A stretch of 64,000 bases of DNA, taken from contig BDDD01001756.1 of NCBI GenBank assembly GCA_001972305.1, forward strand, positions 85,892 to 149,891, read 5' to 3'. The translations under genes and the position numbers were made by a program. Positions 24,771 through 63,068 of the stretch are shown here, in pieces (position 1 is the stretch's first letter; each line of letters starts with the position of its first letter). The notes under the pieces were generated by a model. It saw only the letters and a list, made by a program, of their open reading frames with translations. It made no database searches and was not told where the DNA came from. Source of the stretch: Cephalotus follicularis (Eukaryota; Streptophyta; Magnoliopsida; Oxalidales; Cephalotaceae).

Positions 24771-24795
24771 TCCTCACTCGGCTAAGTCATAAAAG
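24771..24795 (-). other. LTR stem-loop (C left LTR)
   Basis: TTAGCC / GGCTAA around a 13-base loop, 412 bases from the LTR 3' end in the C orientation. Equivalent to the H stem-loop. Confidence 0.62.
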
Positions 24796-25952: not shown

Positions 25953-26168
25953 AACAGTCGTCTTCTTCTTCACGACTTAATAAACAGTAGGCATTATAAA
26001 CCATATTCATGCACAATAACAAGTAATCAAGGCAGGAAACCAACATGTAGATACTCGTTACATATCTAGCATATCATGGCATCGATCCAGTGACAAAATC
26101 AATTCAATAATCATGCATTTCATACACCAAACCATAGACCACGCATGAATATCAATCTCGAGATTTCA

Positions 26169-26340
26169 GTTATGGCTTCCCCTACCTTTTGTTCCACGTT
26201 AGGAACTGGAAAGTCCACCTCTTTGAGTTCCAAACTGGTCACGGCAGCCTCTAAGTTATGGCTTCCCCTACCTTTTGTTCCACGTTAGGAACTGGAAAGT
26301 CCGCCTCTTTGAGTTCCAAACTGGTCACGACAGCCTCTAG
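26169..26340 (-). repeat. 86-base tandem duplication in C left LTR
   Basis: A unit starting TTATGGCTTCCCCTACC occurs at about 26170 and again 86 bases later, with a few differences. The other LTR (33778-33865) has it once, so it arose after insertion or was lost on one side. Confidence 0.88.
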
Positions 26341-26911
26341 GTTCCTCCCGTTGCTGCAAGCCACCAGTTCCAAGCTCCAACCTCCAACCAAGTTCAACAA
26401 TGGTGGTTCGGTTTTCTCTCCTTAACTCTCTGTTTTCTTACCACCGATGTGTTTCTCTCAAGTGTCTGGTTCTTTCTCAATAACTAATAGCCGAAGGTAA
26501 GAGGTGAAGGCTATCTTTTATGCAACTCACCCTTGTTCCTTCTTCCTCTGTGTTTTTTGTTGCAGGTCACATGTGTCTAGGACACCCCCCACCTCTGCAT
26601 GCAGTAGCTGGGTCCGTTTCTCAGTCTCTGTCTCAGCCTTCACGCCAGACAGTGCCACCTTCCTTCTAACCATCCATTGCATGCACACATGTCCCTCCCT
26701 TCTTTGCGCTTGTTGTATGCACATACTCATGCCACACTTGTCCTCACAGTTTCAACCTTGCAGGTTAGGGAGTCATGTGCATGCCCAACACGTCCTAACC
26801 CATGCCTCAAGGCGCCTGCAAAAAGGCCCTAAAAGTTCCCCCTTGCACGTTATTTGTTAGCAGAGTAACATGCCTGGCATTCAAAGTTAACGCATCAACG
26901 TCTTCTCCAAA

Positions 26912-27040
26912 GATGTCGATGTCTTTCCCCTTTTTACACACGAGCGTCGATGTCTTCGCATGCGTCGACGTGCATGTTCATGCAGTTACGTGCGCACCTT
27001 TGCTCCAAGGACGTCGATGTCTTTCTATAGACGTCGACGC
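26912..27040. repeat. TCGA-palindrome cluster 1 (C left LTR)
   Basis: Five centres, including a pair 20 bases apart at the end (GACGTCGATGTC then GACGTCGACGCG). It lies about 180-310 bases from the LTR start in the C orientation. Confidence 0.7.
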
Positions 27041-27222
27041 GTTTCCTTCATAACAGTGTCGTTTTATCCTTTAACATTCATTTAGTATTTTTACTCTAAG
27101 ATTTAATATTATTAGAGTTTAGAAAACATCATCAAAGCCTTGGAAAACAATTCTTTTATTAATTCCACGATAAAACAAATTACATTGAGAAATTATAACA
27201 CTGGGAAATCTCGGGCGTTACA

Positions 27223-30200: not shown

Positions 30201-30760
30201 TGCATCCCTTCTCTAGGTATCTCGATGCCCGGATAAAAGATATGATCGGTGTCGAGAACCCCTTGTCTCCCTTGAACTGAAAATTTGTTCCATCGGGCAG
30301 ACAAAAATCCACAGTCTTATTGTAGCAATCCATGCGAGCATGGTGTGCTGATAGCCAATCCATCCCCAATATGACGTCGAAGTCACAGATAGGCAGCACA
30401 ATCAAATCTGCATACAAGGGGATGCCTGCCATAGACATCTCACAACTCCTATATACCGAGTCAATATACATGGAAGTCCCAGTCGGTGTACTCACATCAA
30501 GTATGTATGACATGCAGTCAGGGGTAACATCTAAGCAAGATGCAAAACGTGCAGATATAAAAGAATGTGATGCTCCAGAATGCATCAGTACTCTAGAAGA
30601 ATAACCATATATATACAGAGTACCTCCAACAACAGAAGTCGACTCTGGAACCTCAGTATGAGCAAGTACAAAAATTCTAACTTTTGCGATGCCCTTGCCT
30701 GTATCCCTCCTCCGTGACGGTCTCGTCGTCGCACCGCTGCTACTCCCCGGTCCAGTAGGT
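27268..30760 (-). pseudogene. Element C pol (PR-RT-RH-INT-chromodomain tail)
   Basis: In coding order, right to left. The protease (about 30690-30280) has [10 protein letters not shown] and VILGMDWLS. The RT (about 30060-29430) has [17 protein letters not shown] and a VVFIDDIL box near 29570-29595. RNase H is about 29200-28800 ([18 protein letters not shown]). Integrase is about 28500-27750 with the zinc-finger CLTCQ and FHPQTDGQ near 28040. The tail has FSVGDHVFLKVSPWKGMQRFG and ends with the chromodomain-like VKVQWQFHRPDEAT near 27310-27350, finishing near 27268. Parts and order are those of a Tekay/Del chromovirus. It looks nearly whole, with a handful of breaks. Confidence 0.92.
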
Positions 30761-31830
30761 GCTGTAGTAGGACTCTTTGGACAGTCCTTCACTGAATGAC
30801 CAGGTGCCCCGCACCTCAGGCACCAACCATTAAAACTCCAGCAATCTTTTTGTTGATGGCCGGTACAACCACAATAATAGCATCCTCCAGATCTAGCATT
30901 ACTCCCTTGGCTAGGAGTACCTTGTGAAGCTGTCTGTTGAGACTTGTTCTTCGACGACTTCATCGGAGAACCCCCATCTTGCCACTTTGACGATGCCAGT
31001 CGGGACTGTGTAGGACTCTGTTTACTCTCCTTTTCTCGAGCTCTCTCAGCCCAGTCCTCGCTGGATATCGTCTCCAACGGTCTTGCTTTCTGAGCAACCT
31101 CCACAAAAGTCCTCAGCTCCATAGCTCTGATCCTTGACCAAAGATCCGGTCGCAGGCCTCTCAGGAATCTCTGAATCTTCTTCTCTTCGTCAGCTACAAG
31201 ATAAGGTGAAAGTTTGGCCATCTCCATAAACCTTGCCTGATACTCGGCCATATTCATCTCTCCCTGTCGCAACTCCAAGAGCTCCGTCTCTCGTCGCTCT
31301 TGCTCAATACGTGGAACATAAGTCTCCAAGAATTATGTCTGGAATCTGTCCCAAGTGCTGTCCAACCTCTGCGACTCCCATTTCTCCTTAACCATTTCCC
31401 ACCAATGAGTGGCCTCACCCCATAGGCGGTACATAGCAAACTTCAGTTTCTGGGCGTTACTACAGTCCATCACCTCAAAGATCTTCTCCTGGTCTTGCAG
31501 CCATCTCTCAGCAATCGTAGCATCTAGTTCTCCCTTGAAGCTAGGTGGATTCAGCCTCATGAAATTCTCAATATCTCTCCCAAAATGGTTACCATCCTCT
31601 CCCGGGCAGTGGTCGGGAGCCCTATGTTGTGGTCGAGCTTGCACGTAATACTGGCGCATCTCCTCCGCATTAGCCCTGTTAAAGGCCATCTGTTGCTGAA
31701 AGTAGTCCACAATTCGAGCCATCGGATCTATGTCATCTTGGGGAATATTCATCCTTTGGGGAACATTTGCTTCCTTCGGGGCATTAGCTTCAGCAGCTCT
31801 AGCCCTAGCTCAGGTTCTCCTTCGGTCCAT
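30761..31830 (-). pseudogene. Element C gag
   Basis: The start is the MDRR codon at 31830 (minus), matching H. The gag core ([55 protein letters not shown]) is about 31580-31190. Two zinc knuckles, [14 protein letters not shown] and [14 protein letters not shown], lie at about 30885-30790. Gag runs on into protease, as in Gypsy polyproteins. Broken only lightly. Confidence 0.9.
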
Positions 31831-31936: not shown

Positions 31937-32342
31937 CTCTTGTCACACCTCGTTTATAGAGAAACGACATTTAAGCAGTAAAGGCAATTAACACATTCAA
32001 ATACAGCTCATGTAAAACCCATAAAATTTAAACTTTAAACCAGAAGCCAGTTGAAGAAGCATTAAAAAACCATAAGGTGTAAAACCTGTAGCGTGCATCC
32101 CATACTACACGCTACCCAAAACAAGTCCAACATAGTTAATCGCCCATAAACGGAGCGTGATCATGGTACAAGTTAAATTCCATCATAAATTAAACCCATA
32201 AGTACGGTACATTAAAAATTCCTTTAACAACTCATTTTATTACAAAACAGGAGAATAAGTAAAACTAAGAAGGGCATAACAACTTCGTTCCTCGCCCATG
32301 CCAGTCCAAACGGTCCACCGCATCAATCTGTAAAGTAGGGGG

Positions 32343-32367
32343 TTAGCCTTTGTCCTCACTCGGCTAA
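32343..32367 (-). other. LTR stem-loop (C right LTR)
   Basis: TTAGCC / GGCTAA around a 13-base loop, 402 bases from the LTR end. Both arms are identical to the left LTR copy. Confidence 0.62.
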
Positions 32368-33228
32368 GTCATAAAAGTAGCTCGGGGTCAACATTAGATG
32401 CATGTCATGATATGAATCCATGAATGATGTAGTGCAGTAGAAACCCCAGTTTATATATATATGAAAAAATATATATTTAATAGTACGGTAAAAATCAGTG
32501 GGTACATATATAAGAAAATATATGTATGCAGAAACAGTACAGTAGTAACCCGGCCAGAGCTACATCAACAAGCACAGTAATGTCCGAGAAGGACCAACAG
32601 GCAGTACAGGATGTCCACATAGGACCACAACAACAGGCAGTATGTGTAACGCCGCCAACTCCTGGCCCCACGCTACACTCCCACTCCGGTCCCTACTTCA
32701 GGCAACCGAGTGAGGCAACAGTATAGTGAGTTACCCAGCCATACTCCTGGCCCCTAGGTCAACCCTACCACTAGCCGGCGCTGGCAACCTCCACCATGCA
32801 ACTAGTGGCTCAAGCACAAACACATAGCAATTCACAAAGCAAACAGTGAATTCAAACAGTAACAGTACAGTACAGTAGTGATCGTTTAGATCCACAATAG
32901 GCAGTTCATTTCAAAATGTTTTGAAAGTGACAACATTTGAAATATTGCATTTTCAGTAGAAAATACTTTTAAACAGTTTCAGTAGTGGAAATCGCTTTCC
33001 AAAGATGTTTGAAATTACGATATCAATATTCGTCTTGTACTCAAAATAGCAGTTTCAATTCACATATGCATTTCTAAAGTAACAACACATTAGAAATCAT
33101 AATTCGAGTACAAACAGGCAGCAAAACAGTGTATGTGCAATGCATACAAATGCTCAAATGCACTCTAACAGGAATCGAGATCGTTTCATATCGTTAGATA
33201 AAGAAATCTCCAAAAAGTACCCAAAAGG

Positions 33229-33558
33229 CGTCGATGTCCATTAAAAGGTGTCGTTGTCTTTGTCCATTACCGTCGACGTCCAAGGTTGTAGTGTCAGCGC
33301 GTTCTACTGCAGAAGGCGTCGATGTCCATTTCTTACGCGTCGACGCTCAAGGTCTGGGACCTTAGAACGACAGCGTATTTGTTCATGGCATCAACGTGTT
33401 AAGGAGGAAACCTTAGGCGTCGACGTGTGATACGTCAAAACCCAACAGACAGCCTAAGGCGTCGATGTATTTCTATAGACGTCGATTCGTTTCACATCAG
33501 TAACTAGGCAAAACCCAAAAGATGTCGATGTTCATCGAAAAGAGTCAATGTTTATCGA
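33229..33558. repeat. TCGA-palindrome cluster 2 (C right LTR)
   Basis: Same layout as 25621-25952. It lies 1.19-1.52 kb from the LTR start in the C orientation. Confidence 0.7.
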
Positions 33559-34413
33559 GTAATAGTCGTCTTCTTCCTCATGACTTAATAAACAGTAGGC
33601 ATTATAAACCATATTCATGCACAATAACAAGTAATCAAGGCAGGAAACCAACATGCAGATACTCATTACATATCTACCATATCATGGCATCGATCCAGTG
33701 ACAAAATCAATTCAATAATCATGCATTTCATACACCAAACCATAGACCATGTATGAATATCAATCTCGAGATTTCAGTCATGCCTTCCCCTACCTTTTGT
33801 TCCATGTTAGGAACTGGAAAGTCCACCTCTTTGCGTTCCAAACTGGTCATGGCAGCCTCTAGGTTCCTCCCGTTGCTGCAAGCCACCAGTTCCAAGCTCC
33901 AAGCTCCAACCAAGTTCAACAATGTGGTTCAGTTTTCTCTCCTTAACTCTCCATTTTCTTACCCCCCGATGTGTTTCTCTCAAGTGTCTGGTTCTTTCTC
34001 AATCAGTAACAGCCGAAGGTAAGAGGTGAAGGCTATCTTTTATGCAACTCACCCTTGTTCCTTCTTCCTCTGTGTTTTTTGTTGCAGGTCACATGTGTCT
34101 AGGACACCCCCCACCTCTGCATGCAGTAGCTGGGTCCGTTTCTCAGTCTCTGTCTCAGCCTTCACGCCAGACAATGCCACTTTCCTTCTAATCATCCATT
34201 GCATGCACACATGTCCCTCCCTTCTTTTCACTTGTTGCATGCACATACTCATGCCACACTTGTCCTCACAGTTTCAACCTTGCAGGTTAGGGAGTCATGT
34301 GCATGCACAACACGTCCTAACCCATACCTCAAGGCGCATGTAAAAAGGCCCTAAAAGTTCCCCCTTGCACGTTATTTTTCAGCAGAGTAACATGCCTGGC
34401 ATTCGAAGTTAAC

Positions 34414-34564
34414 GCATCGACGTCTTCTCCAAACATGTCGATGTCTTTCCCCTTTTTACACACCAGCGTCGATGTCTTCGCATGAGTCGATGTGCATGTT
34501 CATGAAGTTACGTGCGCACCTTTGCTCTAAGGACGTCGATGTCTTTCTATAGACGTCGACGTGT
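34414..34564. repeat. TCGA-palindrome cluster 1 (C right LTR)
   Basis: Same layout as 26912-27040, 180-330 bases from the LTR start. Confidence 0.7.
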
Positions 34565-34744
34565 TTCCTTCAGAACAGTGTCATTTTATCCTTTAACATT
34601 CATTTAGTATTTTTACTCTAAGATTTAATATTATTAGAGTTTGGAAAACATCATCAAAGCCTTGGAAAACAATTCTTTTATTAATTCCACGATAAAACAC
34701 ATTACATTGTGAAATTATAACACAGGGAAATCTCAGGCGTTACA

Positions 34745-34749: not shown

Positions 34750-36583
34750 AATGCAGCACGGACATGTGATAGCTTATGCTTCAAGACAGTTGAAGCCTTA
34801 TGAAGTGAACTACCCTACACATGATCTCGACTTGGCAGTAGTGGTGTTTGAATTAAATATCTGGAGGCACTACTTGTATGAGGAAACTTGTGACGCCTTT
34901 ATCGATCATAAGAGTCTCAAGTACATCTTTATGCAAAAAGAGTTGAACATGCGTAAGAGAAGGTGGTTGGAGCTTCTGAAGGACTGTGATTTGAATATTC
35001 AATACCATCCTGGTAAAGAAAACGTGGTAGCTGATGCACTTAGTCAGAAGAGTTCTGGGAGTATAGCAGCTTTGCTTACTTAGCCGCAGTTGACAGACGA
35101 TATTGAGCGGTTGGATTTGAATCTGTATGTTCAGGGTTCTGAAGGTTTTGTTGCTAAAAAGAATGTAGAGTTTACTCTTATATCTCGGATTAAGATAGCT
35201 CAAATTGATGATGGTGAGCTTTGGGCCTTAGTCCAGAATGTTGAAAAGGGTAAACAATCAGAGTTTCGTATGGATGAACATGGTGTAATATGGCTGGGTA
35301 ATCGGTTGTGTGTTCCGTCAGATTCTTCTATCAGAGATGCTGTTTTGTCAGAGGCACATAGTTCTCAATTTTCTATACATCTGGGTTCTATGAAAATGTA
35401 TAGAGACTTGAAGAAGAACTTCTGGTGGAATTGAATGAAAAGGGATGTAGCGGAGTATGTTGGGAGGTGTTTAATCTGTCAGTAGGTAAAGATTGAGCAC
35501 CAGCATGCTAGTGGTTTGTTACAGCCCTTGGACGTTCCAGAATGGAAATGGGCAAGAATTTCGATGGACTTTGTTACGGGTTTGCCGAAAGCATTCAGAA
35601 GGAACGATGCTATCTGGGTAGTAGTGGATCGATTGACTAAATCGGCACACTTTTTGGCTATCCGAGAGGTCTTTTCTATGGATCATTTGGCTGAGGTGTT
35701 TCAGTAGGAGATAGTGAGACTCCATGGGACTCCGGTATCCATTGTTTCGGATAGGGATCCCCGTTTCACTTCGTGGTTTTGGAAAGTGTTCCAGAAAGCT
35801 TGGGGTAATAGGCTCAGTTACAATACAGTTTTCCATCCACAGACAGATGGGTAGACTGAGAGGACCATCTAGACCTTAGAGGATATGTTTAGGTCTTATG
35901 CATTGGAGTGGACTGGGAACTGGGACGAGTATTTGAGCCTAGTGGAGTTTGCCTACAATAACAGTTAGAATGCTAGCATCCGTATAGCTCCGTTTCAAGC
36001 TCTTTATGGGAGGAAGTGTCGATCTTTGACATGTTGGGATACGGTTGGAGAGCGAGTTATTGAGGGATCCGAGCTAGTGCAGATCACTATGGAGAGATTG
36101 AAGGCAGCTCAATCTCGACATAAAAGTTATGCGGATAGACATCGGAGGGACTTGGAGTTCAAAGTAGGTGAACATGTGCTCCTAAAAGTTTCACCTTGGA
36201 AAAGAGTCTAACGTTTTCGGCTGAAAGGAAAGTTGAGTCCACGGTATAATGGACCTTTTGAAGTTCTGGAAAAGTTAGGCGCGGTTGCTTATCGGTTTGC
36301 TTTGCCTCCGTAGTTAGGACACGTTCATAACGTGTTCCACGTGTCTTTGGTGAGGGGTTACCAGTATTATCCCTTGCATGTGGTTCACTATCCTTTCGAC
36401 AGCATTCGGGAGGACCCATCTTGTGACGAGGAGGTAGAGGCTATTCTGGATCGACAGGAGCGGGTGACACGTAGCAAGACCTTTCCCTTTGTGAGAGCTC
36501 TGTGGAGTAACCATCCCAAACGTGAGGCCACTTGGGAGTTGGAGGAGCATATTCAGGAGCGTTATCCGCACTTGTTTGCTTGA
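34750..36583 (+). pseudogene. Element B pol remnant, part after C (RH-INT-chromodomain tail)
   Basis: RNase H resumes ([18 protein letters not shown], about 34751-34870, to VVADAL near 35030). Integrase begins near 35340 with its HHCC finger, then MDFVTGLPKAF and VVVDRLTKSAHFL (35560-35660), and continues to a FKVGEHVLLKVSPWK motif near 36160. The chromodomain-like tail (VRALWSNHPKREATWELEEH) ends near 36583. Heavily broken. Confidence 0.85.
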
Positions 36584-36635: not shown

Positions 36636-37779
36636 TGTAATACCCTTCTTGTTCGTATATGTGTTTTACGAACTTTTACCTGTTTGTTTTCGGGCTTTTT
36701 AATTTGTGTTGTTATAAAGTCCGTTTACCCTGTGTTTTGGGCCAATGTGTTTTGGGCTGACTGATACCAGCCTGGACTTTTGGTTATGTTAGTATGTGGG
36801 AATGTTTATGTATGGTATATGTTTATTCTAATTCTTTTATTCAAAACTTAAATTATATATTAAAACAAATTTTACTATTTTATTTCCTTTATTTTCTTCC
36901 TCTTTTATTTCTCTATCTCTCACCCTAATCCCTCTCCCTCCCGTAACTCTTTCTACCTCTCTATCTGTTTACACGTTTTGTATCCCTTTTCCATTCTTAT
37001 CTCCTGAAAATCCTCTCTTCTACCCTATCTATCAGATTATGTTTCCTCTTTTCCTAATCCTACCCGAAATACATGCTCCTTTTTGTTTAAGTAAGCTGTT
37101 AGTCTTTTCGGTGTGCCATCGTTCTCTTCTGTTGGTGGCTGACGACCCTGCCATTGTGAAATCATTGTGTTCTCTGTGTTTTTGCTTCATCAATAAGTTT
37201 TGTTTCTCCATGGTTAAATGTAGGTATCGTTTATTTGATATGAAAAGCAATGGCATACTTTGAATTGTTTGTCTTCTTTATTTCCTTGTGAACAGCTGTG
37301 TCTAAGCCTTGAGAATCCTGTGTTTTTCCTGTAATTGTGTCTTCTTTGCAGGTTGGTACCCTTATGTTACTATTATGGTTCATTCAATCGTACTATGAAT
37401 CTATTTGTGCATGTCTACATAAGTGTTAGAATTCGGTTTTGGTTCCTGTAGACTTTATTTATTTTGTCATTGTGTTTCTGAGCCTATTAGCAAGTCTGTA
37501 GACACATAGAAAGAGTTATGCAGTCTGGTTTTTAATATCTGTAAATGGTAATGGACAGAAAATTGGACTAATATATGTGCATATGATTAGAGGTCTCTCT
37601 TGTCTCCTGAAGTTAATCACTGTTTATATACTTCTTCATGTTAATTATGTATTTTTACACTGTCTAAACATCATATAAAGTCTTATGTATATGTTCATAG
37701 GTCTCTGGTATCGAGTTACACATGTTTAGACAAGTTTCTGTATTGTAAATACTAAGTTTCTGCTATTCTGTCGTCAAGA

Positions 37780-37993
37780 ACAGTCAACTATTTTTATGGA
37801 CAGTCGGCTGTTGTGGGTTGTGTAGTCGGCTACCTTATGAAATAGTCTACTACCTTGCTATGCACAGTCGGCTAGACCTCTGTCACAGTAGACTGCCTGC
37901 AGTCTGTTTTGTGTAGTCGACTGGCCCTGTTGCATAGTCGACTGCCAAGCTTCCAACAGTCGACTAGAGCTCTATAACAGTCAGCTGTTTTGC
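37780..37993. repeat. TCGA-palindrome array (B 3' LTR)
   Basis: About ten AGTCGACT-like units, several decayed, most 20-22 bases apart. Includes a block of four to five units missing from the 5' LTR. Confidence 0.78.
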
Positions 37994-39112
37994 CCAGAAA
38001 ATTCCTGTTTTCTACTGTTTTGATCCACTTGTTCTTCGAATCGATCTAGGTCTTTCCTAAACACTGTAATGAACATGTTTTATATCTCTAATGATTCTCA
38101 GGCCCTTATATGCATGGTTTTGTGTTTTTTAGATTGTTGTGCTTCAAGGGGAGTTTGAATTAACAATATTTTCATAATTCTTTTCTGTAAGCGCATAAGG
38201 TACGAATATTCTGCTCTTTGATACTCTCTTGACTTTATCGAGGCAAAATCAGCTTTCTTTCTATCTCTCTTTGGCCATCTGGTTTTATCGAATGAAAATC
38301 AGTTTTGCTTTTATGATATGTTCTTCGTGTTACGAACTCGGTTATGTTATGAAATTGATACGTTCTGGAAAATAAGTCGGCTTTGACATTTTATGAATTT
38401 AATATTCCTGACTTTATACTTATGTTATGATATGTTATGAAATGATCATCTCTTTATAGTGAAAAATAAATGAGTTGATATTCCGATTAAGAAATGTATG
38501 TTATGATATCGTTTGTGAACGATTTTCGAATATGTTTTGAAAAAGCATATTTTATGTGTTTCTAAATTGATTTTGATAAATAAATATTTTCGAAATACTG
38601 AGTATTTGTACCCACCTATGGGGCGTACCATAGGCATGTCGTAGGCCTGGCACGGGGACATGACACTTCCGTAGCGGTGTGATTAGTCTACGGCGTCTCT
38701 ATATGTTATGAATAAATCCCATGAGGTGGATTTATGGATCCGCTATGTATGATGGAGGCGTATGAATGGATTCTAGTTTATGGTATATGTGATAAGATAT
38801 GCAATGTGTGATACGATGTGATATGAGAATTGACTTGTGTAGTGCCGTACACTTCAATTCTAAATGGCATGTGGAATTAGCTCCTCCCTTGCCATATATG
38901 TTTCTGATATGTGATATGTTATGTGGCTCAGTATGAATTATGATATTATGAAATCGTGATTTTGAATGTTTATTTCAAAGTTATGAATTGGGTTTTATGA
39001 AGTTCGAAAATGAACATTTAAATGATTTACTGCTTAAGATTTCTGTTACGAGTTTTATTGAACTCTTACTGCTTTTAAACTACCGTTTACTGTTTTATAT
39101 TCCTTATCTGTA

Positions 39113-39127
39113 CTGATGTTTGCTCAA
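39113..39127 (+). other. LTR stem-loop, weakened (B 3' LTR)
   Basis: Same place as 21244-21258 but with a weaker stem: only the middle pairs remain. It is recorded because it argues against perfect conservation. Confidence 0.4.
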
Positions 39128-39471
39128 CCGCATTTTTGTTTCCTTGCGGCAGGTTATCACGAGCAGCGGGGGAAAGTGTGAATGAGAGATAACCACCTTT
39201 ATGTCAAGGATCGTTAGGAGTGTGATCCTGTTATGTTTTCTGTTAGAGTTGGTCATTGACAATAAGATACTTTTGGTTCATGTTCTTACTAATTGACCCT
39301 TCGAACATGTTTTAAGTTTTCTGAATATGTTAAGTTTTCAGTATGTTTTTCAGATTTGTTATGCCCGCCACGTTTTTAGCTAATAAAGTTATGCCTATGT
39401 TATGTTCAGTTATGTTATGTTAGATTCTGTATTATGACCTATGACCACTCCCGCCATCCGGGGGTGTTGCA

Positions 39472-42605: not shown

Positions 42606-43140
42606 GCCAATTCCTTAGCCATTCCTCTCATTTTACTCATTCTTCTCCCTCTCTTTATCCTTCTGCTTCTCATTCTCTCTCTCAGCCGGCAGCCTACTCC
42701 TCCATAGCAGCGCCGGATTGCATCTCCAACAACAAACAACAATTGAAGTCTCACCTTTCCTTGGTTGGAGAAAGATTGCAGTGGATTCTTCAAGTTTCCC
42801 AACTGATTGATTGATTGGAAGCTCAACTTTTGAAGCTTCGTTAAAGGTAGTACTTCCCTACTTGAATTGCCTATGGCTTAAGCGCATGATTGATTGAATT
42901 GCATGATTAATTGAGTGATTGAATGATTGAAATGAAATGAATTATGAAACTAGGGTTTTCATTGATTTTCCTTGCTCTAATTGATCTAGGAAGATTAAAA
43001 CTGAATTTTGAAGGTTGTAACAAGTTTTACTAACCTTAAATTATTAATTTTAAGCCTTGGTTTTAAAAGAATGGCTTTAAATTGTATTTTGACTTGAAAA
43101 TTGATGGTTTTCTTCACAAAATCGGCCATTCCCAGCAAAG

Positions 43141-43450
43141 ACATCGATCCCCTTGCCCATGGACATCGAGGTCTTTCATTTTGGGATGCAACCTCCTTCA
43201 TTTCGTAGCAAAGACATCGATGTCTTTGAAAGACATCGACGTCTTTGCCATGAGATGTCTTTTCCCAGAAAAGGCATCGACGTGGGACATCGATGTGCAT
43301 TCCCAGGTCATTTTAATTGAAATGCGTCGACGTCTTTGTCCAACGACATCGACGTCTTTGGGAAACTGAGAAAAACATCGATGTCTTTCAAAGACATCGA
43401 CGTCCTTCTACCGTTTTCAAAGGTATGCCCGGATATGTATCGATGTCTTT
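43141..43450. repeat. TCGA-palindrome array (E 5' LTR)
   Basis: Eleven TCGA centres, at 43144, 43166, 43217, 43236, 43277, 43290, 43327, 43349, 43378, 43397 and 43440. The consensus is AAAGACATCGA[T/C]GTCTTT. Spacings are mostly 19-22 or about twice that. Confidence 0.82.
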
Positions 43451-49700: not shown

Positions 49701-50244
49701 GCCAATTCCTTAGCCATTCCTTTCATTTTACTCATTCTTCTCCCTCTCTTTATCCTTCTCCTTCTCTCTCTCTCTCTCTCTCTCCCAACCAGCAGCCTCC
49801 TCCTCCATAGCAGCTCCGGATTGCATCTCCAACAACAAACAACAATTGAAGTCTCACCTTTCCTTGGTTGAAGCAAGATTGCAGTGGATTCTTCAAGTTT
49901 CCCAACCGATTGATTGATTGGAATCTCAACTTTTGAAGCTTTGTTAAAGGTTGGACATCCCTACTTGAATTGCCTATTGCTTAAGTGCATGATTGATTGA
50001 ATTGCATGATTGATTGAGTGATTGAATGATTGAATTGAAATGAATTGTGAAACTAGGGTTTTCATTGATTTTTCTTGCTCTAATTCATGTAGCAAGATTG
50101 AAACTGAATTTTGAAGGTTGTAACAAGTTTTACTAACCTTAAATGATTGATTTTAAACCTTGGTTTTCATAGAATGGCTTGAAATTGTATTTTGACTTGA
50201 AAATTGCTGGTTTTCTGCACAAAATCGGCCATTCCCAGCAAAGA

Positions 50245-50512
50245 CATTGATCCCCTTGCGCATGGACATCGATGTCTTTTGCTTTGAGATGCAACCTCCT
50301 TGATTTCGCAGCAAAGGCATCGATGTCTTTGAAAGACATCAACGTCTTTGCCTTGAGTAGTCTTTTCCCAGAGAAGGCATCGACGCGGGACATTGATACG
50401 CATTCCCAGGTCATTTTTATTGAAACGCGTCGACCTCTTTGTCCAAGGACATCGACGTCTTCGGCCAACTGAGAAAGACATCGATGTCTTTCAAAGACAT
50501 CGACGTCCTTCT
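50245..50512. repeat. TCGA-palindrome array (E 3' LTR)
   Basis: Counterpart of 43141-43450 with the same consensus. Some centres have changed, such as the first. A few further units follow after F (about 60262-60300). Confidence 0.78.
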
Positions 50513-50531: not shown

Positions 50532-51217
50532 TGTAACGCCCTGTAGCAGTTTTGGAACTTTTTCTATGGAGTGTACTTTTTTTTTATGGGATTTGGACTT
50601 AATTTGAGCAAGAGAATAAGGTTAAGTGTTGTTTGTGTTATAAGCCCATGGGCAAAGCATGATTAGTGATAGTTAAAGGACTTAAGTGCAAAGCTTGTTG
50701 AGGAAGCTTCCATATCCCAAGACAAAAGACGGCTTAAGTTGGGATTAGTGTGAAGACTTTTTGGAGTTGTAGCCATCCTTTCTTGTAGCTTCAGCAGAGA
50801 GTTTAGAGAGTTTTAGACAGAGACAGTTCTAGTTTTCTTTTTTTCTTTCCATTCTTAGCGCCTGAACCAGAGGGAGCTTGTAGCGTCCGACCCCAGTAAG
50901 AAGAACAAGTGGATGAGGAAAGACGTAGTCAGCCAGAGGAAGAGCGTATCAGAAAGAAGGGACGCTAACATCCAAGGAAGTAACAAAAACTGTGAGTCGG
51001 ACATCCTTTCTATGTTTCCAGTTGTTTTATGATGTTCTTGATAACTCTTTCGATTTCTAATCCCTAGTACAGTGAGAGCTTTCTAACAGGAATTTATTTC
51101 CCTAGCGTCTTTGTATGTTTCCCATGACAGAAAGAGAGAGAGAGAGTTTCTCAATCACTAGAGCTCAAGTTCTTCAAATGAATTAGTCACTTTCCAGTAA
51201 GGTAACGCGTATGTGCT

Positions 51218-51482
51218 CAACCCAACTCCTCGGCCTACTATGGTCTATGATGGGAAGTCGAGCGAGTCTGCCCCAGGGTTCCATACCTGGATCTCCTTTA
51301 CACTATTGTCTATGATGGTGTTTAGGGTATGAGTGTAGCCGAGCACTATGTACATAGCTCCAACCTCCTCGGTCTAATATTATCTCTGATAGGAAGCCAG
51401 GCGAGTCCGTCCCCAGGTCCTACCTGGATGTCCTTTACGCTATTGACTATGATGGTGTATAGGGTTTGAGTACAGCAGAGCT
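51218..51482 (+). repeat. Diverged tandem duplication in F LTR
   Basis: Units 51218-51360 and 51361-51482 share CTCGGCCTA, TCTATGAT, GGCGAGTC and CTATTG...ATGATGGTGT..AGGGT blocks. The 3' LTR has both units too, with G inserted in the first, so the duplication is older than F's insertion. Confidence 0.75.
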
Positions 51483-52009
51483 AAGTTGTTAAAAGTAGAG
51501 ATTAGGGCCTTTCAGTAAGTCTTCTAGAGGAGGACTTTGTCCTCGGCAGTTATGCCATCAGCCTAGTTAAATAAGAAAAACAAAGAATTTCAAGCACAGA
51601 AGGGAACCATGGGTTCTCGGCAGTTACTGCCAAGCAGGCTTCGGCCTAGATCAGCTCAGCGCCACTATAAGTTGGTAACTATATTATGTAACAAGCCGGT
51701 TTTGGCCTAGATCAGCATAGAAAAGGAAAGCCAGTTCCTAGCTTAGTTGTTCTCCTCAGGTGTTTAGCCGAGAAAGACCCAAGTTCTTTATCAGATACCT
51801 TTGTTTTAATGAGTTGTACTCTTAAATTTATTTCAGCTTATAAGAATGTTCTAGAACCAGCTCAGCAGTGAAAGAGTAAGTTTTTCTAGTACTTTGAGCG
51901 TTTCTTTATTGTATGCCATGACATATGCTTGTTTTCATGTTCATGGTAAGCTTTCTTTCACCAGATTCATTTATAAGAATGTACCAGAGGATGTTTCGTT
52001 CTCATTCAC

Positions 52010-52026
52010 TTAGTCAGTTGGACTAA
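52010..52026 (+). other. LTR stem-loop (F 5' LTR)
   Basis: TTAGTC / GACTAA around loop AGTTG. Compared with E (TTAGCC / GGCTAA), one C-G pair has become T-A with pairing kept. It lies about 1.16 kb before the LTR end, farther than in other families. Confidence 0.68.
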
Positions 52027-53271
52027 TCCCCTCAGAGACTGTTTTGCAGACCAGCCAGCAAGAGGAGACCCTCCAGCTCAGCAGTAGATAGATTAGCAAG
52101 GTAGTTTTTGAGCTCAGCACCGTGGAACGTCAGCTCGGGTGTTTAGCACTTGCATCGTATGGGGCATACTTTGGGTTCTGTTACCCTTTGTTCGTAGTAG
52201 ATTAGCTTTTCTTTGTAAGCTTGATGTTCTTTTACCTGCCGAGGGAGCCAATGTTTGTATACCAGAGGACATATATGTAATTATTTTATGCTTTCAACAT
52301 ATGTTATGGATGTTTTAAGTTAACATATGTGCTTATCATGTGTTTTTATGAACTTTTTATGTTTTCAATTTTGTGATCCCAGGCCTGGCAGGGGAGCTAG
52401 AGTGTCCCCGGGCTAGTATAGCAGAGACGTGCTTAGCGGGGGAGAATAGTTTTTGGCTAAGGTTTTTGCCTTAAGTTTTTGGAGTGTTACCTGTGGAGGC
52501 AAGGTGTCTCCGGTTAAGGTTGCCTTTGGAGTACACCACGAGAAGGAGTCCTCGGGTAAATACCAGGGAAGGCTGGTTAGAAGAAGGCCCAGGACGGGCA
52601 CATGTTTGATGGTTAGCGTTTAAGTTATGCTGTACGTTTTGATGTTAGTTGGGTTGCTGAGTTAAGCAGGGGTGCCAGGGGAGTTCAAGTGAGCACGTGA
52701 GGCGTGCGTGGGTTTCTCCCCAGACGCTTATGTTGTTTTCTCCCCAGGGCGTTAGTTATGCGCAACGTTTTGGACTTGGGCTAAGGGTGTTTTAGCCTAA
52801 GAAGGAGAAAGACCTGAGGACAAGTAGTGTCCCCGGGAATTTTGGTTAAGTGTTCTCGTGAGTTGCACGTTTGTGCTCTCCCTGGGCATGCTTTGCGCGT
52901 TGTGTTAAGTCCATGTGAGGAGCACGTGGGGGTTAAGTAAGGTGGGGCATTTTGGTGCCTTGGTTAAGTAAAGCCTTGGGAGTTAGTGTTACGGCGGGTT
53001 TCGAGTTTTGGTTTTAAGTTGTACGCGGGGCATGAGCAGGGGAGGAGTTAGCTCCTCTGCCCCGTCTGCCCAGTTTGCTGTGCGCCCAGCCCAGCCCAGG
53101 CTTTCTCCTCGGGCAGTTGTAGTTTAAGAGGGTTGTTGGCAATAGGAGCGCCATCCCCGGTCAGGGCACGTCTCTCATAGAGTTAGCGGGGTATCTTGTT
53201 GGGTTGCGTTCATGCATTGCATATAGGTGGTAACCTTTTCGTGATACGTTAGCATGTTGTTGTAGAAGACG

Positions 53272-54769: not shown

Positions 54770-55556
54770 TGTGACGCCCCGTAGCAGTTTTGGAACTTTT
54801 TCTATGGAGTATAATTTTTTTTATGGGCTTTGGACTTAATTTGAGAGAGAGAAGAAGGTTAAGTGTTTTTTGTGTTATAAGCCCAAGTGTAAATCTTGAT
54901 TAGTGATAGTTAAAGGACTTAAGTGCAAAGCTTGTTGAGGAAGCTTCCATATCCCAAGACAAAAGACGGCTTAAGTTGGGATTAGTGTGAAGACTTTTTG
55001 GAGTTGTAGCCATCCTTTCTTCTAGCTTCAGGTGAGAGTTTAGAGAGTTTTAGAGAGAGAGAGTTCTAGTTTTCTTCTTCTTCTTTCCGTTCTTAGCGCC
55101 TGAACAAGAGGGAACTTGTAACGTCCGACCCCAGCAAGAAGAACAAGCGGACGAGGAAAGAAGCAGTCAGCCAGAGAAAGAGCGTAGCAGAAAGAAGGGA
55201 CGCTAACGTCCAAGGAAGTAACAAGAACTGTGAGTCGGACATCCTTTCTATGTTTCTAGTTGTTTCATGATGTTCTTGATAACTCTTTCAGTTTCTAATC
55301 CCCGGTCCAGTGATAGCTTTCTAATGGGAATTTTTTTCCCTAGCGTCTTTATATGTTTCCCTTGACAGAAAGAGAGAGAAAGAGAGTTTCTCGAGCACTA
55401 GAGATCAAGTTCTTCAAGTGAATTAGTCATTTTCCAGTAAGGTAACGCATACGTGCTCAACCCAACTCCTTGGCCTACTATTGTCTATGATGGAAAGTCG
55501 AGCGAGTCTGCCCCCGGGTTCCATACTTGAATCTCCTTTACACTATTGTCTATGAT
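54770..55556 (+). repeat. Element F 3' LTR, part before G
   Basis: Aligns with 50532 onward up to CTATTGTCTATGAT, where G is inserted. Confidence 0.92.
55552..55556. other. Target duplication of G, left (ATGAT)
   Basis: ATGAT, repeated at 58311-58315. Confidence 0.9.
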
Positions 55557-56703
55557 TGTAATACCCTGTTCGTTCGTAAATATATTTTACAGATTTTATA
55601 TGTGTTTTCGGGCTTTTAATTTTGTTTAATTTTAAAAGTCCGGTTGCCCTACAATTTGGTTTATGTGAATTGTGCTGACTGATACCAGTCCGGAATTTGG
55701 GTATGTTATGCTATGTTGAATTTGGGTTTTATTTATTTTATTTTAATCCAAAATTATTTTAATTAAAAACAAATTATTTACCTTTTTATTTTAAAATCCC
55801 TTAATTCTTTTTATTATTAATTCTTTAATATTCTTTTTCCTATTGTACCATTTTCTTCTACTTTCCTCCCACGTTCTTCCTTCTTTCCAGCAAATCTTTC
55901 TTCCCACCATCAATTCACATGCTAAAGTCCTTCCTTTTCCCATTTCAAAATCCAGAAAAGTTCCCTTTCTTCCCCCTGTTGTCAAATCATGTCTCCTCCT
56001 TTCTCCTTTCTTTGAGTGCCTTTGCTATTTTATATGATACCTCATCATTATTGCAAGCCACTGCCGAAATTGCCTTGTTAGTGTATAACAATCTGCTGTG
56101 TAATTTATTCTTCAAAGTCAGAAGAGGTAAATTCAATCCTTTAGTTGTTTCCTTGGATTAAATTCTCTTAGTTTGCTATGTATGTCTAAGTATGTCATGG
56201 TTTTGTATCCTTCTTTCTTTGTTTTTGTTCACAGCCCAATTGTGGGTGTGTGCTAGTGTTTCTTCTACTGTTTTTGTGTTCTGGGAATCACTACAGGTCA
56301 GTAAATTCGTCCGCTTTAATTATAGTTTTGTTTCAATGGCATACTTTGAGTTTTTATGCTCTTGGTGTCCTTGGGTCATTGATTCTTGCCTAAATGTGTT
56401 GTCATTGTGTTAGTGATATTGTAAACGCGTTTTATACTCATATATATGTCACAAACTGAGTTTATAACATCTGTAATCAATTAGGAACAGAATCTGGACA
56501 TGTACATCCATTGTCTTCTTACTTCCTTTTTCAAGTTAAATAATTGACAGGTCGTTTCCTTGTCAAATTTGTGTTTTTATGTCACCTACAAGTCATATAT
56601 AATCATATGTTTATGTCCATATGTCTCTACTTTAATGTAGAAACCATTTGAACCATTTTCAGTAGCAAATCGTCGAATTTCCAACTGTTCTGTCACCCAG
56701 AAC

Positions 56704-56910
56704 AGTCGGCTGTCTCTGTGGACAGTCGGCTGGAATGGTCAGGTAGCCGACTGCCACATGAATGCAGTCGACTGCCTAGGTTGTGTAGTCGACTGGATGG
56801 ATGAACACAGTCAACTGCCTGCCCTTTTAATTGAGTAGTCGACTGGACCTTTTGTATAGTCGACTGCCAAGCTTCCCCAGTCGACTGGAGCCCTGTTTTA
56901 GTCGACTGTT
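56704..56910. repeat. TCGA-palindrome array (solo LTR G)
   Basis: Ten AGTCGACTG-like sites begin at 56704, 56724, 56745, 56766, 56787, 56809, 56837, 56858, 56879 and 56900. The steps are 20, 21, 21, 21, 22, 28, 21, 21 and 21. Spacer sequences differ from one another. Confidence 0.88.
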
Positions 56911-57945
56911 TTGCCCTGGAATGTAATGTTTTCAACTGTTTTGATTCGTTTAATCCCCGAATCGATCCGAATCTTTTCCAAACACTGCTAAGAGTCTGTT
57001 TAATGCTTCTGATGTGTTTTAGACTCTTATACACATGATTTTGAATGTCTTTATAGATTGTTGTGCTTCAAGTGGATTCCGTTTAAATTGTCTATTCGTA
57101 AGTACTTTGTGAGCGCATAAGGTACGGATTTTCTGTTCCTTGGCTATCTGACATTCAAACTGAAACTGTTTTGATAAACATCTTCGTTTATGAAATCAAT
57201 GATGTTTCATGATTTTGATACGTTTTGAATTTAAAGTTGGTTTGACATTTTAATTGATTCCGACTTTATCTATACGATATGTTATGGTACGATATGTTAG
57301 GATACGATATGTTATGATATGATATGTTATAATACTGTTGTGAGCAGTTTTTGAATATGTTGTGTGAAAACATATTTATGCGATTTAAGATGATTTTGAT
57401 AAATCAATTATTTTGAAATTATATACTGAGTATTGTACCCACCTATGGGGCGTATCCATAGGCACGTCGTGCGCCTGGCACGGGGACGTGACACTCCTGT
57501 AGCAGTGTGATTAGACTACGACGTCTCTGAGTGTATGAACGAATCCCATGAGGTGGATTTGTGGATCCGCTATGTGATAGAGGCGTATGAATCGATTCTA
57601 GTTTATGTGATATGAGCTGAATTCAGATATATGATCTGAGGTGTGATTGGATATGTGTATATGAGAATTGACTTGTGTAGTGCCGTACACTTCAATTCTA
57701 GTGGGCATGTGGAATTAGCGCCTCCCTTGCCAAAATTTATGATATGTGATATGAATATGGCTCAGTATGTTTTACGAACTACGATTTATAGCGTTTTGAA
57801 TTGTTTCGTAATTGTTTCAAAAGATATGCAATTGTCATTTGTATATGATTAAACTGTTGTAGCTGTTTAAGATTTCTGTTATGAAGTTTATTGAAATATT
57901 ACTGTTTTTAAGTTATCGTTTATTGTTTTATTTCCCTTATCCGTA

Positions 57946-57960
57946 CTGAGGTTTGCTCAG
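57946..57960 (+). other. LTR stem-loop (G)
   Basis: CTGAG / CTCAG around loop GTTTG, 350 bases before the LTR end; identical to A. Confidence 0.6.
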
Positions 57961-58310
57961 CCGCGCTTTTTTTTTTCCATGCGGCAGGTTTTCAGGAGCA
58001 GCGGGGGAAAGTGTGATTGAGTGATGACTACCCTATGTGTTGGATCCTTAGGAGAGTGATCCTTATGTTATGTTTAGTGGTCTGATACATGGATTTTCAT
58101 GTTTTATGTTTTATGTTTTAAATTGGTACTGGTGTATGTTTTGAATTTTCCGCAACCACTTAATATGTTAAATGGTTAAGTTTTAATGTTTTGATAAGAC
58201 TGCCACGTTTTCTGGCTGTTATTGGCTAATAAAGAACACTTATGATTTGTTAAGTTGAGTTATGTTATGATATGACCCTGTGATGACTCCCGCCATCCGG
58301 GGGTGTTACA

Positions 58311-60251
58311 ATGATGGTGTTTAGGGTATGAGTGCAGCCGAGCACTATGTATATAGGTCCAACCTCCTTGGTCTACTATTGTCTATGATAGGAAGTCGGG
58401 CGAGACTGTCCCCAGGTCCTACCTGGATCTCCTTTACGCTATTGTTTATGATGGTGTATAGGGTTTGAGTACAGCAGAGCTAAGTTGCTAAAAGTAGAGA
58501 TTAGAGACTTTCAGTAAGTTTTCTAGAGGAGAACTTTGTCCTCGGCACTTATGCCACCAGCCCAGTTAAATAACAAAAGCAAAGAATAGCAAGCACAGAA
58601 GGGAACCATGGGTTCTCGGCAGTTACTGCCAAGCAGGCTTCGGCCTAGATCAGCTCAGCGCCACTATAAGTTGGCAACTATATTATGTAACAAGCAGGCA
58701 TCAGCCTAGATCAGCAAAGCAAAGAAAAGCCAGTTCCTAGCTTAGTTGTTCTCCTCGGGTGTTTACCCGGGATGGGACCCAATTCTTTATCAGATACCTT
58801 TCTTTTAATGAGTTGTACTCTTTAGTTTATTTCAGCTTATATGAACGTTCTAGAACCAGCTAAGCAGTGAAAGAGTAAGTTTTTCAAGTACTTTGCACGT
58901 TTCTTTATTGTATGCTATGACATATGCTTGTTTACAGTCTTTTCCCCAGTTGGGATAGTTTTTCATGTTCATGGCAAGCTTTCTTTTAGCACATTCATTT
59001 ATAAGAATGTACCGAAGGATGTTTCATTCTCATTCACTTAGTCAGTTGGACTAATCCCCTCACAGACTGTTTTGCAGACCAGCCAGAAGAAGGAGACCCT
59101 CCAGCTCAGTAGTAGATAGTTTAGCAAGGTAGTTTTTGAGCTCAGCACCGTGGAACGTTAGCTCGGGCATTTAGCACTTGCATAGCATGGGGCATAGTTT
59201 GGGTTCTGTTACCCTTTGTTTGTAGTAGAGTAGCTTTCCTTTGTAAGCTTGATGTTCTTTTACCTGCCGGGGGAGGCAGTGTTTGTATACCAGAGGACAT
59301 ATATGTAATGGTTTTAGGCTTTCGAGATATGTTATGGATGTTTTCAGTTGACAGATGTGCTTATCATGTGTTTTTATGAACTGTTTATGTTTTGAGTTTT
59401 GTGATCCCAGGCCTGGCAGGGGAGCTAGAGAGTCCCCGAGCTAGTATAGCGGAGACGAGCTTGGAGGGGGAGAATAGTTTTTGGCTAAGGTTGTTGCCTT
59501 AAGTTTTTGGAGTGTTACCCGTGGAGGCAGAATGTCCCCGGGTAAGGTTGCCTTTGGAGTACACCCCGAGAAGGAGTCCTCGGGTAGATGCCAGGGAAGG
59601 CTGGTTAGAATGAGTCCTGGGATGGGCACATGTTTGATGGTCAGCGTTTAAGTTATGCTGTGTGTTTTGAAGTTTCTTGTGTTGTTGAGTTGAACAGGGG
59701 TGCCAGGGGACAAGGCATGGTCGCAGGGGAGTTTAAGTGAGCACGTGAGGCGTGCGTAGGTTTTTCCCCCGGCGCTTATGTTGTTTTCTCCCCAGGGCAA
59801 TAGTTAGGCTCAGCGTTTTGGACCTGGAATAAGGGTGTTTTAGCCTAAGAAGGAGAAAGACCCGAGGAAAAGGATTGTTCCCGGACATGTTGGTTATGTG
59901 TGCTCGTGAGTTACACGTGTGTGCTCTCCCCCGGCATGCTTTGAGCGTTATGTGAACTCCACGAGAGGAGCGCGTGGGGCTTAAGTAATGTGGTGCGTTT
60001 TTGAGCCTTGATTAAGTAAAGCCTTGGGCGTTAGTGTTACGGCGCGTTTTGAGTTTTGGTTTTAAGTTGTGCGCGGGGCATGAGCAGGAGAGGAGTTAGC
60101 TCCTCTGCCTCGGCTGCCCAGTTAACTGCACGCCCAGCCCAGCCCAGGCTTTCTCCTTGGGCAGTTGTAGTTTAAGAGGGTTGTTGGCAGAGGAGTGCCA
60201 TTCCCGGTCTGGGCACGTGTCCCATTGTGTTAGCGGGAATGGGTCGTGACA
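58311..60251 (+). repeat. Element F 3' LTR, part after G
   Basis: Begins with the second copy of ATGAT and continues the F LTR (GGTGTTTAGGGTATGAG) to GTCGTGACA at 60251. Contains the palindrome GGCAGTTACTGCC (58618-58630) and a stem-loop (59038-59054). Confidence 0.92.
59038..59054 (+). other. LTR stem-loop (F 3' LTR)
   Basis: TTAGTC / GACTAA around AGTTG, identical to the 5' LTR copy, about 1.2 kb before the LTR end. Confidence 0.66.
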
Positions 60252-61171
60252 CATGCCCTGATACGCATCAATGTCTTTTCCCAATTACATCGACGCCTTT
60301 TGGGCTAAGTGGAATTTTTGACTGTTTAAAGCTAGTTTTCAACTTCTTTTCACATTGCCACTTGTCTGGAGCATCACTTGGGGTGTTCAAGTGTTTGAAA
60401 ATGGTTTTAATGATTGTACTGACCGATTGATTGCTTGAGTCATGAGTGATGTGAGTCTAAGTCGATAAGTTGGACGCACATTCCCAACCCTCCATTAGAT
60501 ACCGTCACTCATTGACTTTGCTTATTGACATTGAAATGATATTGCATTGACGTGATTGATGGTATTGTATGGATCCTATAGAGCGACCTTATGATTCGTG
60601 TCGGCATGTTAGGTTGTTGACTCTGTCCACCTATTTCATCGATCGTTTCATTACTGCATTGTGTTGACCTGCTGATGAGTGATACCAATTGATTGTCGAT
60701 TGATGCTCCCTTGAGGCTGTAGCTCCCTAACGGTGTCAGTAGCTCCCTCGATTGTAGCTCATCGAGACTGTATTGACCCAGCCATAGGCTGGAAGATCTA
60801 TAAGTCGCAGACCTGATCAATTTGGGAACCGTATATAGATCTCCCACCTTTTTTGAAGGACTACCTTCCGTGGGATTGATCACTGCTAACTGATTGACAT
60901 TGTACTGACCCGAGGTCGCATACTCTGTAGGGTATGGTTGCTTGATTGGGTGTTTGATACACCACCAATGAGTGTCTGTCATTGATTGATTGTTATAGAT
61001 CCTATTCGTATGCTCTGTTATGGGTCATTGTTATACCGGTAGTCTGATCGCCAGCTGTACATATGCATTTGCGATGTCACGCATTGATATTGTACACCGC
61101 ACATTTTTATTTCATAGATTGTCATCGATATTGCACATTGTACATGTATACATGCTGCATGAGGTTTCTGC

Positions 61172-61208: not shown

Positions 61209-61591
61209 TTGTGTTGTACCTTTGGGTGTGACATAGGTAGGGCAGCGAGTAGCAGCAGACCGAAGGATACATTTTGATTGTGTAACCAATTCTTTAAAAC
61301 ATTTCTGCGTCCTTGGAAAATACTTTCCCCAGTCATTTTGAAAAATATATATATTCATATGTTGACAAATATACATTTTCGTACAATAATGATTATAATA
61401 ATCATATAAGCTTTTCAAAATGGTTAACATCTTTTAGCAATCAACCTTAAAGAAATTTATAATTCAGTAATAATGCAAACATATGCTCAGAATGCATCTA
61501 GGGCCGTTTCTAGAGTATTTTCGGGTCTAACGGGTCCCATCCGAGTGAGATTTTTCCAAACAGGAGGATAAGCGTTGATGCATATTCCTAG

Positions 61592-61692
61592 GGCGTCGAC
61601 GTCTTTTGCGCTAAGGCGCCAACATCTTGTACAATTATTCCCAGGCATTTTTGGACCAAAGACGTCGATGCTTTTCCAAAGGCATCGATGTC
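61592..61692. repeat. TCGA palindromes, cluster 2a (I)
   Basis: Includes a pair 21 bases apart (GACGTCGATGC at 61661 and GGCATCGATGTC at 61681). Confidence 0.65.
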
Positions 61693-61914
61693 TTTATGAT
61701 ACCAGGAGGTATCCGTTCGTGAAACTTGATTCTAGGGGGAAGAATCCGGCCCTTAAACCCTCATATAAGCAAAACTCACCCTCTCAAGGCGTAAGGCATG
61801 CTACTGTTTATCAGGATATGTAACCAGAACATCAATTCGTAAATAAACACGTAACCACGAGTAGCCAATTCCCCATCTGCAGTAAACACAACTGTTCTAT
61901 GAATACCCAGAAAA

Positions 61915-62000
61915 GGCGTCGATGCTTTCACTCAAACATCGATGTCTTTCACAGTCACACACGAAGACATCGACGTCTTTAGGTAGACATCGATGTCTAT
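61915..62000. repeat. TCGA palindromes, cluster 2b (I)
   Basis: Four centres in two pairs, each about 20 bases apart. Confidence 0.68.
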
Positions 62001-62748
62001 TCAGTCCAGAACGTCATTTCCATAGTTTTAACACACCAGGTTATTACCCAAATCATCCATTACACAAACCAGTTCGAATATTCATGTAATTTGCACATGC
62101 ATGTTCACTCCGTACATCACAGTAGTCATCACAACAAGTCCAGAGATTATAATTCATCCATTAACATGCAATTCACCAATGACATTCATTATCCTAAAAC
62201 TCAAAATGCATGTATAAGAATCATCACTTTCCCCTACCTTGTTGTTCCAAGTTAGGAACTAGAAAGTCCACCTCTTTGTGTTCCAAGGGTTGCTCACAGC
62301 AGCTCCCAACTCACCCAGGTTGCAATCCCAGGAGCTCCAAGCTCCAAGTGCTCAACAATGGTGGTTCTATCTTCTCTCACTCTTTCTCTGTTCTGTCTCT
62401 TTTCTCACTGTGTTTGGCTGAGAAAGAGGGGAAGAAAGAGGTGTTTTATGCTAGCAGAAACCCTCCCCTTCTCTCTTGCTTCACAGGTATCCACACACAC
62501 CTGTGCTCACGCCTCTCACCCTCTGGTTTTTGGCTCTCATTCCATCTCTCTTCTGCAGGTTGCAGATGAAGATGGCATATCCTCTTGCATGCACCAGGTG
62601 AAGAACACGTTTTGGACCATGCCTGGAAACACACCAGCATGGTCAACACGTCGCATTGTGCATGTCGAGCTGCCTGGATGATGCCTCAAAAGTTGCCCCA
62701 TTGCATGTTATTCTTTCAGTGTATAACGTGACAGATGTTCTTTTCAAA

Positions 62749-62896
62749 GGCGTCGACGTCTTTCCTTAGACGTCGATGTCTTTTCTTCTTTCATAAGAAG
62801 CTGTCGATGTCTTCATCTATATCGACCTGCATGTACATGCATTCACGTGCATCTTGATTCCCGTAGGCGTCGACGTCTTTCCAAAGACATCGACGC
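62749..62896. repeat. TCGA palindromes, cluster 1 (I)
   Basis: Includes pairs 20 bases apart at 62753/62773 and at the end of the cluster. It lies 170-320 bases from the LTR start, as in C and H. Confidence 0.7.
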
Positions 62897-63068
62897 GTTT
62901 ACCTCAAAACTGCGCCGTTTTAGTTTAACACACACATTTCTTTCCCCAAAACAATTTTTAAGGTTTGGAAACATCTTTGAGGAAAAAATCTCAACATTTT
63001 CATTAATTCAAGCATAAGATTACATCTTAAAACGAAATATTACAATAAAGAAAATACCGGGTGTTGCA

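Follow-up and report, generated by a model that had tools for sequence, protein, structure and literature searches.

Arrays of TCGA-centred palindromes, with neighbouring sites mostly about two helical turns apart, in several LTR families of one 64-kb plant window

The array of palindromes described here lies in a solo LTR, LTR G, of a 64-kb window (the window being the whole stretch of DNA that was analysed), and all arrays, counts and comparisons come from this one window, in which the other copies of the array are that of LTR B and, in part, that of LTR A (Table 1). LTR G is flanked by a 5 bp target duplication, ATGAT, at 55552-55556 and 58311-58315 and was inserted within another repeat, a related copy of which was found by self-BLAST at 50532-53190. 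LTRs A and B are about 92% alike by self-BLAST, and as GATAT precedes A and also follows B the two bound one element, which is interrupted by a further nested element. The feature expected of a chromovirus, a chromodomain ending pol, is present in the A-B element; G is a solo LTR only, and LTR homology relates it to LTRs of a chromodomain Ty3/gypsy element. The Pfam families that the window's pol and gag ORFs match include RVP_2, SH3_Tf2-1 and Ty3_capsid. G and B mismatch at 134/400 bases in the flanks close to the array and at 415/1,513 along a longer stretch.

The element nested inside the internal part of the A-B element is on the minus strand and has a 2.8-kb LTR pair (24358-27222 and 31940-34744) and a pol ORF, 28429-31332, that is open over 967 codons. 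Shortly downstream of LTR A, positions 21608-21618 read TGGTATCAGAG, which we take to be the usual plant primer binding site for initiator-Met tRNA. Ahead of the array, 55791-56561 of G and 36885-37639 of B do not align with each other whilst both sides do, as if this segment had been exchanged between the two LTRs and the array retained. The stretch 3977-4684 is the 3' part of an LTR of the same family (family 1), 88% identical to G; at about 3979 it directly abuts internal sequence, as though its array had been lost by deletion.

Table 1. LTRs, chromodomain and palindrome arrays in the 64-kb window
Feature	Position	Strand	Description	Steps (bp) or basis
Family 2 array 1	10261-10361		four AAGCGTCGACGCTT-type sites	21,48,20
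Family 2 array 2	11138-11332		eight sites	21,52,22,23,21,23,21
LTR A	18851-21602			
Array A	19995-20110		same array as G and B minus 91 bp between sites 3 and 7	
Family 3a array 2	25619-25944		GACATCGACGCC type; element on minus strand	
Family 3a array 1	26891-27041			
Family 3b array 2	33227-33552		eleven sites	20,22,46,21,51,29,42,20,43,20
Family 3b array 1	34413-34563		five sites and a sixth (34485) added by eye	
Chromodomain, 3' end of A-B element pol	36314-36580	+	PF00385	E 4.2e-06, above its cut-off
LTR B	36636-39471			
Array B	37781-37987		ten aligned sites, several decayed	20,22,20,22,21,28,21,22,21
Family 4 copy X1	43140-43447		GACATCGATGTC-type sites, partly 19-bp doublets	
Family 4 copy X2 of X1 array	50243-50507			
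Solo LTR G	55557-58310	+	2,754 bp, starts TGTAATACC, ends TGTTACA	self-BLAST and boundary letters
Array G	56703-56908		ten YAGTCGACTR-type sites	20,21,21,21,22,28,21,21,21
Family 3c	61571-62897		three clusters, 61571-61692, 61915-61997 and 62749-62897	doublets at 20-21

The ten sites of G and the steps between them are exactly those given in a preliminary description of this DNA. Their 8-mers start at 56704, 56724, 56745, 56766, 56787, 56809, 56837, 56858, 56879 and 56900, and between 55555 and 58310 the 8-mers within one mismatch of AGTCGACT are these ten and no others. AGTCGACT itself accounts for six of them, the remainder being AGTCGGCT (twice), AGCCGACT and AGTCAACT (once each), every one a single transition off. 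The same description called the sites TCGA-centred palindromes, which applies to all ten if one mismatch is allowed but not letter for letter, as the exact TCGA centre is present in six and absent from four. The central CG is intact in 9/10 and the full 10-bp palindrome CAGTCGACTG is found in just two, whereas each of the six letters of AG-C--CTG is present in all ten and the base to the left of the site is always C or T; the family 1 consensus word is cAGTCGACTG. The spacers have a mean pairwise identity of 0.293 versus 0.247 (p 0.024) when aligned from the left and 0.252 versus 0.247 (p 0.39) from the right, a similarity that scarcely reaches past two bases on the right-hand side of each site; these two tend to alternate between CC and GA. 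Tandem Repeats Finder reported no array with a score of at least 40 at 56703-56908, and in array G the spacers are less alike than the sites, unlike those of a simple tandem repeat.

Ten aligned sites and an identical step of 28 are common to G and B, and in B the ends of the stretch that is absent from A share 11 bp (TTGTGTAGTCG). In element orientation the consensus is taA.CGtCGACGCtT. for family 2, aagACaTCGACGccTt for family 3b and AAGACATCGA.GTCtT for family 4, with CGtCGACG and GACATCGA.GTC as core consensus of these other families, and CG is central in most sites of all four families. Families 2 and 3 have half the motif in common and are alignable outside their arrays; a complete replacement of the motif between them was considered and dropped, TCGACGC on one side being common to both. 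Family 1 has different flanks around the same TCGA. For families 2, 3c and 4 the limits were drawn by eye from self-BLAST, and LTR pairs are to be read as non-independent copies.

The word GTCGAC occurs 33 times in the window versus 6.5 +/- 2.7 (maximum 15) in 100 shuffles. Distances of 19-23 bp between TCGA and TCGA occur 34 times versus 2.7 +/- 1.7 (maximum 8) in 200 block shuffles of the whole window, and distances of 24-28 bp not at all versus 2.4. Some longer distances are also in excess (45-50 bp, 18 versus 3.2; 60-66 bp, 15 versus 3.7) because the sites cluster. Thirty of the 34 doublets at 19-23 bp fall in LTR blocks (24.8 kb, with the ends of A and B placed one and two bases too far right for this count), three in internal blocks (23.8 kb) and one in 3977-4684. 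Among the 53 steps between neighbours in five non-redundant arrays, counted without two overlapping family 4 hits and without the site at 34485, 33 measure 19-23 bp, 19 exceed this range and one, of 13 bp, falls below it. The proposed check for a step near 21 in other copies was thus borne out, such a step being preferred in B and in the other families. Neither this step being missing nor spacers as conserved as sites, the two outcomes named beforehand as speaking against the preliminary description, was found in B or in the part of the array that A retains.

Twenty-one base pairs are two turns of DNA, from which it had been proposed that all sites face the same side of the helix. This does not hold, since the step of 28 is 2.67 turns and puts sites 1-6 and 7-10 of G in two groups about 240 degrees apart, with the same offset in B, and since longer steps elsewhere are unphased: the 19 steps above 23 bp in the five non-redundant arrays have no 10.5-bp phase (R 0.28, p 0.26), which rules out an array on one helix face throughout. 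Pairs and short runs of sites could still lie on one face. The significance of the phase over all 53 steps is carried by the 33 short ones and 10.5 is the best period in none of the five single arrays, therefore the phase test itself is no proof of helical phasing. Between G and B the spacer indels are of single bases and alternate in sign (+1,-1,+1,-1,+1), an alternation with a chance of about 1 in 16, so that the lattice has drifted by at most one base.

The opposite rates at which sites change within one insertion and between lineages are the main evidence that the sites may be under selection. Within one insertion, 3a and 3b differ in array 2 at 20/132 site positions, 8/194 spacer positions and 16/373 positions of the flanks, and none of 1,061 other positions of the mask gives as high a change. 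The figures are 5/72 for sites and 3/79 for spacers in array 1 of the same pair, and 3/40 and 2/34 in the right part of A and B, where sites decay no faster. Pooled, the within-insertion comparisons give 28/244 for sites versus 13/307 for spacers (p 0.0017), with array 2 as the source of the effect, and in the family 3 insertion sites change at about three times the spacer rate because they are dense in CG. Transitions make up 17/20 of the changes in sites, 6/8 in spacers and 12/16 in flanks of 3a/3b array 2; being equally common outside the sites, they indicate that the site excess reflects CG density and not a special type of change, and an argument for methylation from the type of change was dropped for this reason.

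Between lineages the order is reversed. G and B differ at 18/100 site positions versus 37/105 spacer positions (p 0.004) in a three-row alignment (spacers 36/104 in a second alignment), which agrees with the earlier remark that palindromes, and not spacers, are conserved. In array 1, 3b and 3c differ at 14/71 versus 37/78 (p 0.0003), the site at 34485 being included here and in the shifted-mask test, in which none of 126 other mask positions is as low. The pool of the two is 32/171 versus 73/182 (p 1.4e-5), and sites thus change at about half the spacer rate. When the mask is shifted along a longer G/B stretch, conservation equals or exceeds that of the sites at 293 of 1,551 other positions; the conservation of sites is therefore local and not unique in the LTR. 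Family 4 copies X1 and X2, perhaps the two LTRs of a single element, show no difference (11/120 in sites, 16/145 in spacers). When the CGs present in either copy are counted, those kept in both are 29/45 in sites versus 23/43 outside (p 0.39) within one insertion, and 15/25 versus 21/76 (p 0.007) between lineages, or 5/22 outside (p 0.017) with a short G/B stretch. CGs therefore decay alike when idle, and those of the sites are retained between lineages. Homogenisation among the repeats could mimic part of this conservation.

Starting from what is observed, namely the sites, their preference for 19-23 bp, their recurrence in several LTR families and the opposite substitution rates, we consider it somewhat probable that the array is a selected cis-regulatory cluster of homodimer sites, read by their TCGA-centred palindrome and probably arranged in two-site, two-turn units. 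A homodimeric DNA-binding protein would recognise the palindrome, the working unit would probably be two neighbouring sites two helical turns apart with two dimers side by side on one helix face, and such units would be repeated at looser spacing. In an active element selection would maintain both the sites and the spacing of neighbours; after insertion the CG-dense sites would decay faster than their surroundings, as CGs do elsewhere in the LTR, with CG methylation as the presumed cause. The array may affect transcription or silencing. It lies about 1.15 kb from the LTR start, which suits the position in the leader suggested in the preliminary description, and TATA-like words on both sides of it, as well as splice-like words, were noted by eye as leads only.

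A binder encoded by the element was sought by a Pfam scan of all 20 ORFs of at least 150 aa and three shorter stretches. Sixteen of these 23 stretches have matches, every one to gag-pol or chromodomain families; at the E-value used there was no match for 874-1347, 7967-8557, 22470-23015, 27739-28227, 31333-31809 and 60509-61024 (minus) or for 35969-36208 (plus). As no extra element gene that might be a candidate binder was recognised among the 23 scanned stretches, a host factor is the more likely binder.

It is unlikely that the palindromes act instead in RNA, where in a transcribed leader they would form hairpins or pair between genomes and so serve packaging or dimerisation, or would lead to small-RNA production. 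Array G does fold strongly as RNA (-104.7 kcal/mol versus -67.1 +/- 4.4 in shuffles, z -8.5), as does array B (z -4.9), but a row of palindromes would give that in any case, and when the sites are fixed and the spacers shuffled the plus-strand z falls to -0.95 and -1.19 for G and -0.37 and -0.34 for B, hence little RNA structure is left beyond the sites of G and B. This control is exceeded by family 4 on either strand (z -3.6 to -4.8) and by the minus strand of 3b (z -2.3, -2.6), in a test that is not clean there since their palindromes are longer than the 12-bp mask. Maize Sirevirus palindromes have been proposed to feed small-RNA production, and the available text reports a small-RNA excess where Sirevirus palindromes are clustered (PMC10760457). 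Hairpins, however, need inverted partners and not self-palindromic sites, and the fixed step would be left unexplained.

Distinctly unlikely, in our view, is a tandem repeat with a unit of about 21 or 42 bp, drifted in its spacers, in which the sites persist through homogenisation and have no present role. A 42-bp unit may have left its trace in the alternation of CC and GA right of the sites, the deletion in A lies between sites 3 and 7 and implies that sites do recombine, and families 2 to 4 are partly tandem-like, as they hold arrays listed by Tandem Repeats Finder (in family 2, at 11252-11331, one of 21 bp x 3.7 copies with 67% matches; in families 3 and 4, six with two copies of 19-20 bp). 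Such a repeat is harder to reconcile with G spacers that have no clear similarity past two bases right of the sites, and with sites that are conserved between lineages though they change faster within the family 3 insertion. Very unlikely is a signal made of CG alone, in which CG palindromes at even spacing would retain or prevent DNA methylation, or would place nucleosomes, with no sequence-specific dimer involved; the central CG of most sites in each of the four families and the fast decay of CG-dense sites within the family 3 insertion would fit it, yet the conserved word of array G, with its six invariant letters, reaches past the CG. The reading that we favour is one of homodimer sites working two by two.

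Repeated and sometimes palindromic sites are found, as here, in other retrotransposon cis-regulatory arrays such as Tnt1 box I, and Tto1 is another retrotransposon with repeated or palindromic cis-regulatory sites. Box I of Tnt1 is named in the study of Bousios et al. (2010, PMC2829016), whose subject, the palindromic repeated motifs (RM) of Sireviruses, is the closest known precedent. In its available text RM boxes are described as at least eight palindromes per element, most with CG, clustered in the LTRs (3 to 14 in the 3' LTR) upstream of a conserved TATA box and with diverged flanks; the motif varies by family, the grape version being CGGTCGACCG and that of Tnd-1 ACAATCGATTGT, and a CGG-CCG signature is present in 12 of the 13 in the table, Tnd-1 excepted. 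The present arrays resemble them in having at least eight palindromes clustered in an LTR (ten in G and ten in B), and the grape motif has the same GTCGAC core. Unlike the RM boxes, which belong to Ty1/copia elements, they lie in Ty3/gypsy elements, with a chromodomain in the A-B element, and the CGG-CCG signature is absent, thus they are not members of the Sirevirus RM although by analogy they may work in a similar way. The authors call RM Sirevirus-specific, as judged against other Ty1/copia elements, and the same available text contains nothing on helical or periodic spacing of the boxes.

For maize, Ty3 elements are described as lacking, in general, a clear peak of such structure, and the cis-regulatory regions that transposable elements carry as often being arrays of repeats, sometimes palindromic, of which several examples are cited (available text of PMC10760457). 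The VANC target motif YAGTATTAY of the VANDAL DNA transposons (Hosaka et al. 2017, PMC5735166, available text) is likewise a repeated short word in non-coding parts of transposable elements that differs between related families, but it is not palindromic and its binder is encoded by the element, whereas none was recognised here. Among the literature matches listed, with most subscription journals outside coverage, there was none for TCGA-palindrome arrays in Ty3/gypsy LTRs, and the available part of PMC10794571 has nothing on such arrays.

It is a tentative and rather doubtful extension that plant chromovirus LTRs as a class carry doublet arrays of TCGA palindromes two turns apart, with flanking letters that track diversifying dimeric binders of host or element, and so form a Ty3/gypsy counterpart of the Sirevirus RM boxes with a spacing rule. 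If this were true across genomes, palindrome arrays would be recurrent in both LTR superfamilies and not a Sirevirus speciality, and the spacing rule would point to a cooperating dimeric factor, for which the motif is specific enough to be used in fishing out the binder. Fast decay within an insertion set against slow change between lineages would furthermore allow functional sites in old repeats to be tested for from sequence alone.

Outside the window, an RNase H-region query against viral_contigs confirmed no further copies. A two-site pattern matched 12 stretches in viral_contigs and at least 119 in genome_contigs, where 80 titles among the matches listed were all bacterial or archaeal; motif clusters at the outside loci that were examined were commonly spaced evenly, with a step of about 18 to 23 bp, and these matches were set aside as chance or coding repeats.

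Finally, the LTRs hold short repeats of other kinds. Downstream of the palindromes in LTR G there is a ATACGATATGTTATG array of about 4.3 copies of 15 bp (57272-57335), and TATGT-like repeats are also found at 21527, 38421 and 39396. The LTR of family 3a contains an 86-bp unit twice in tandem with 96% matches (26168-26343), of which family 3b has apparently a single copy at the matching place.
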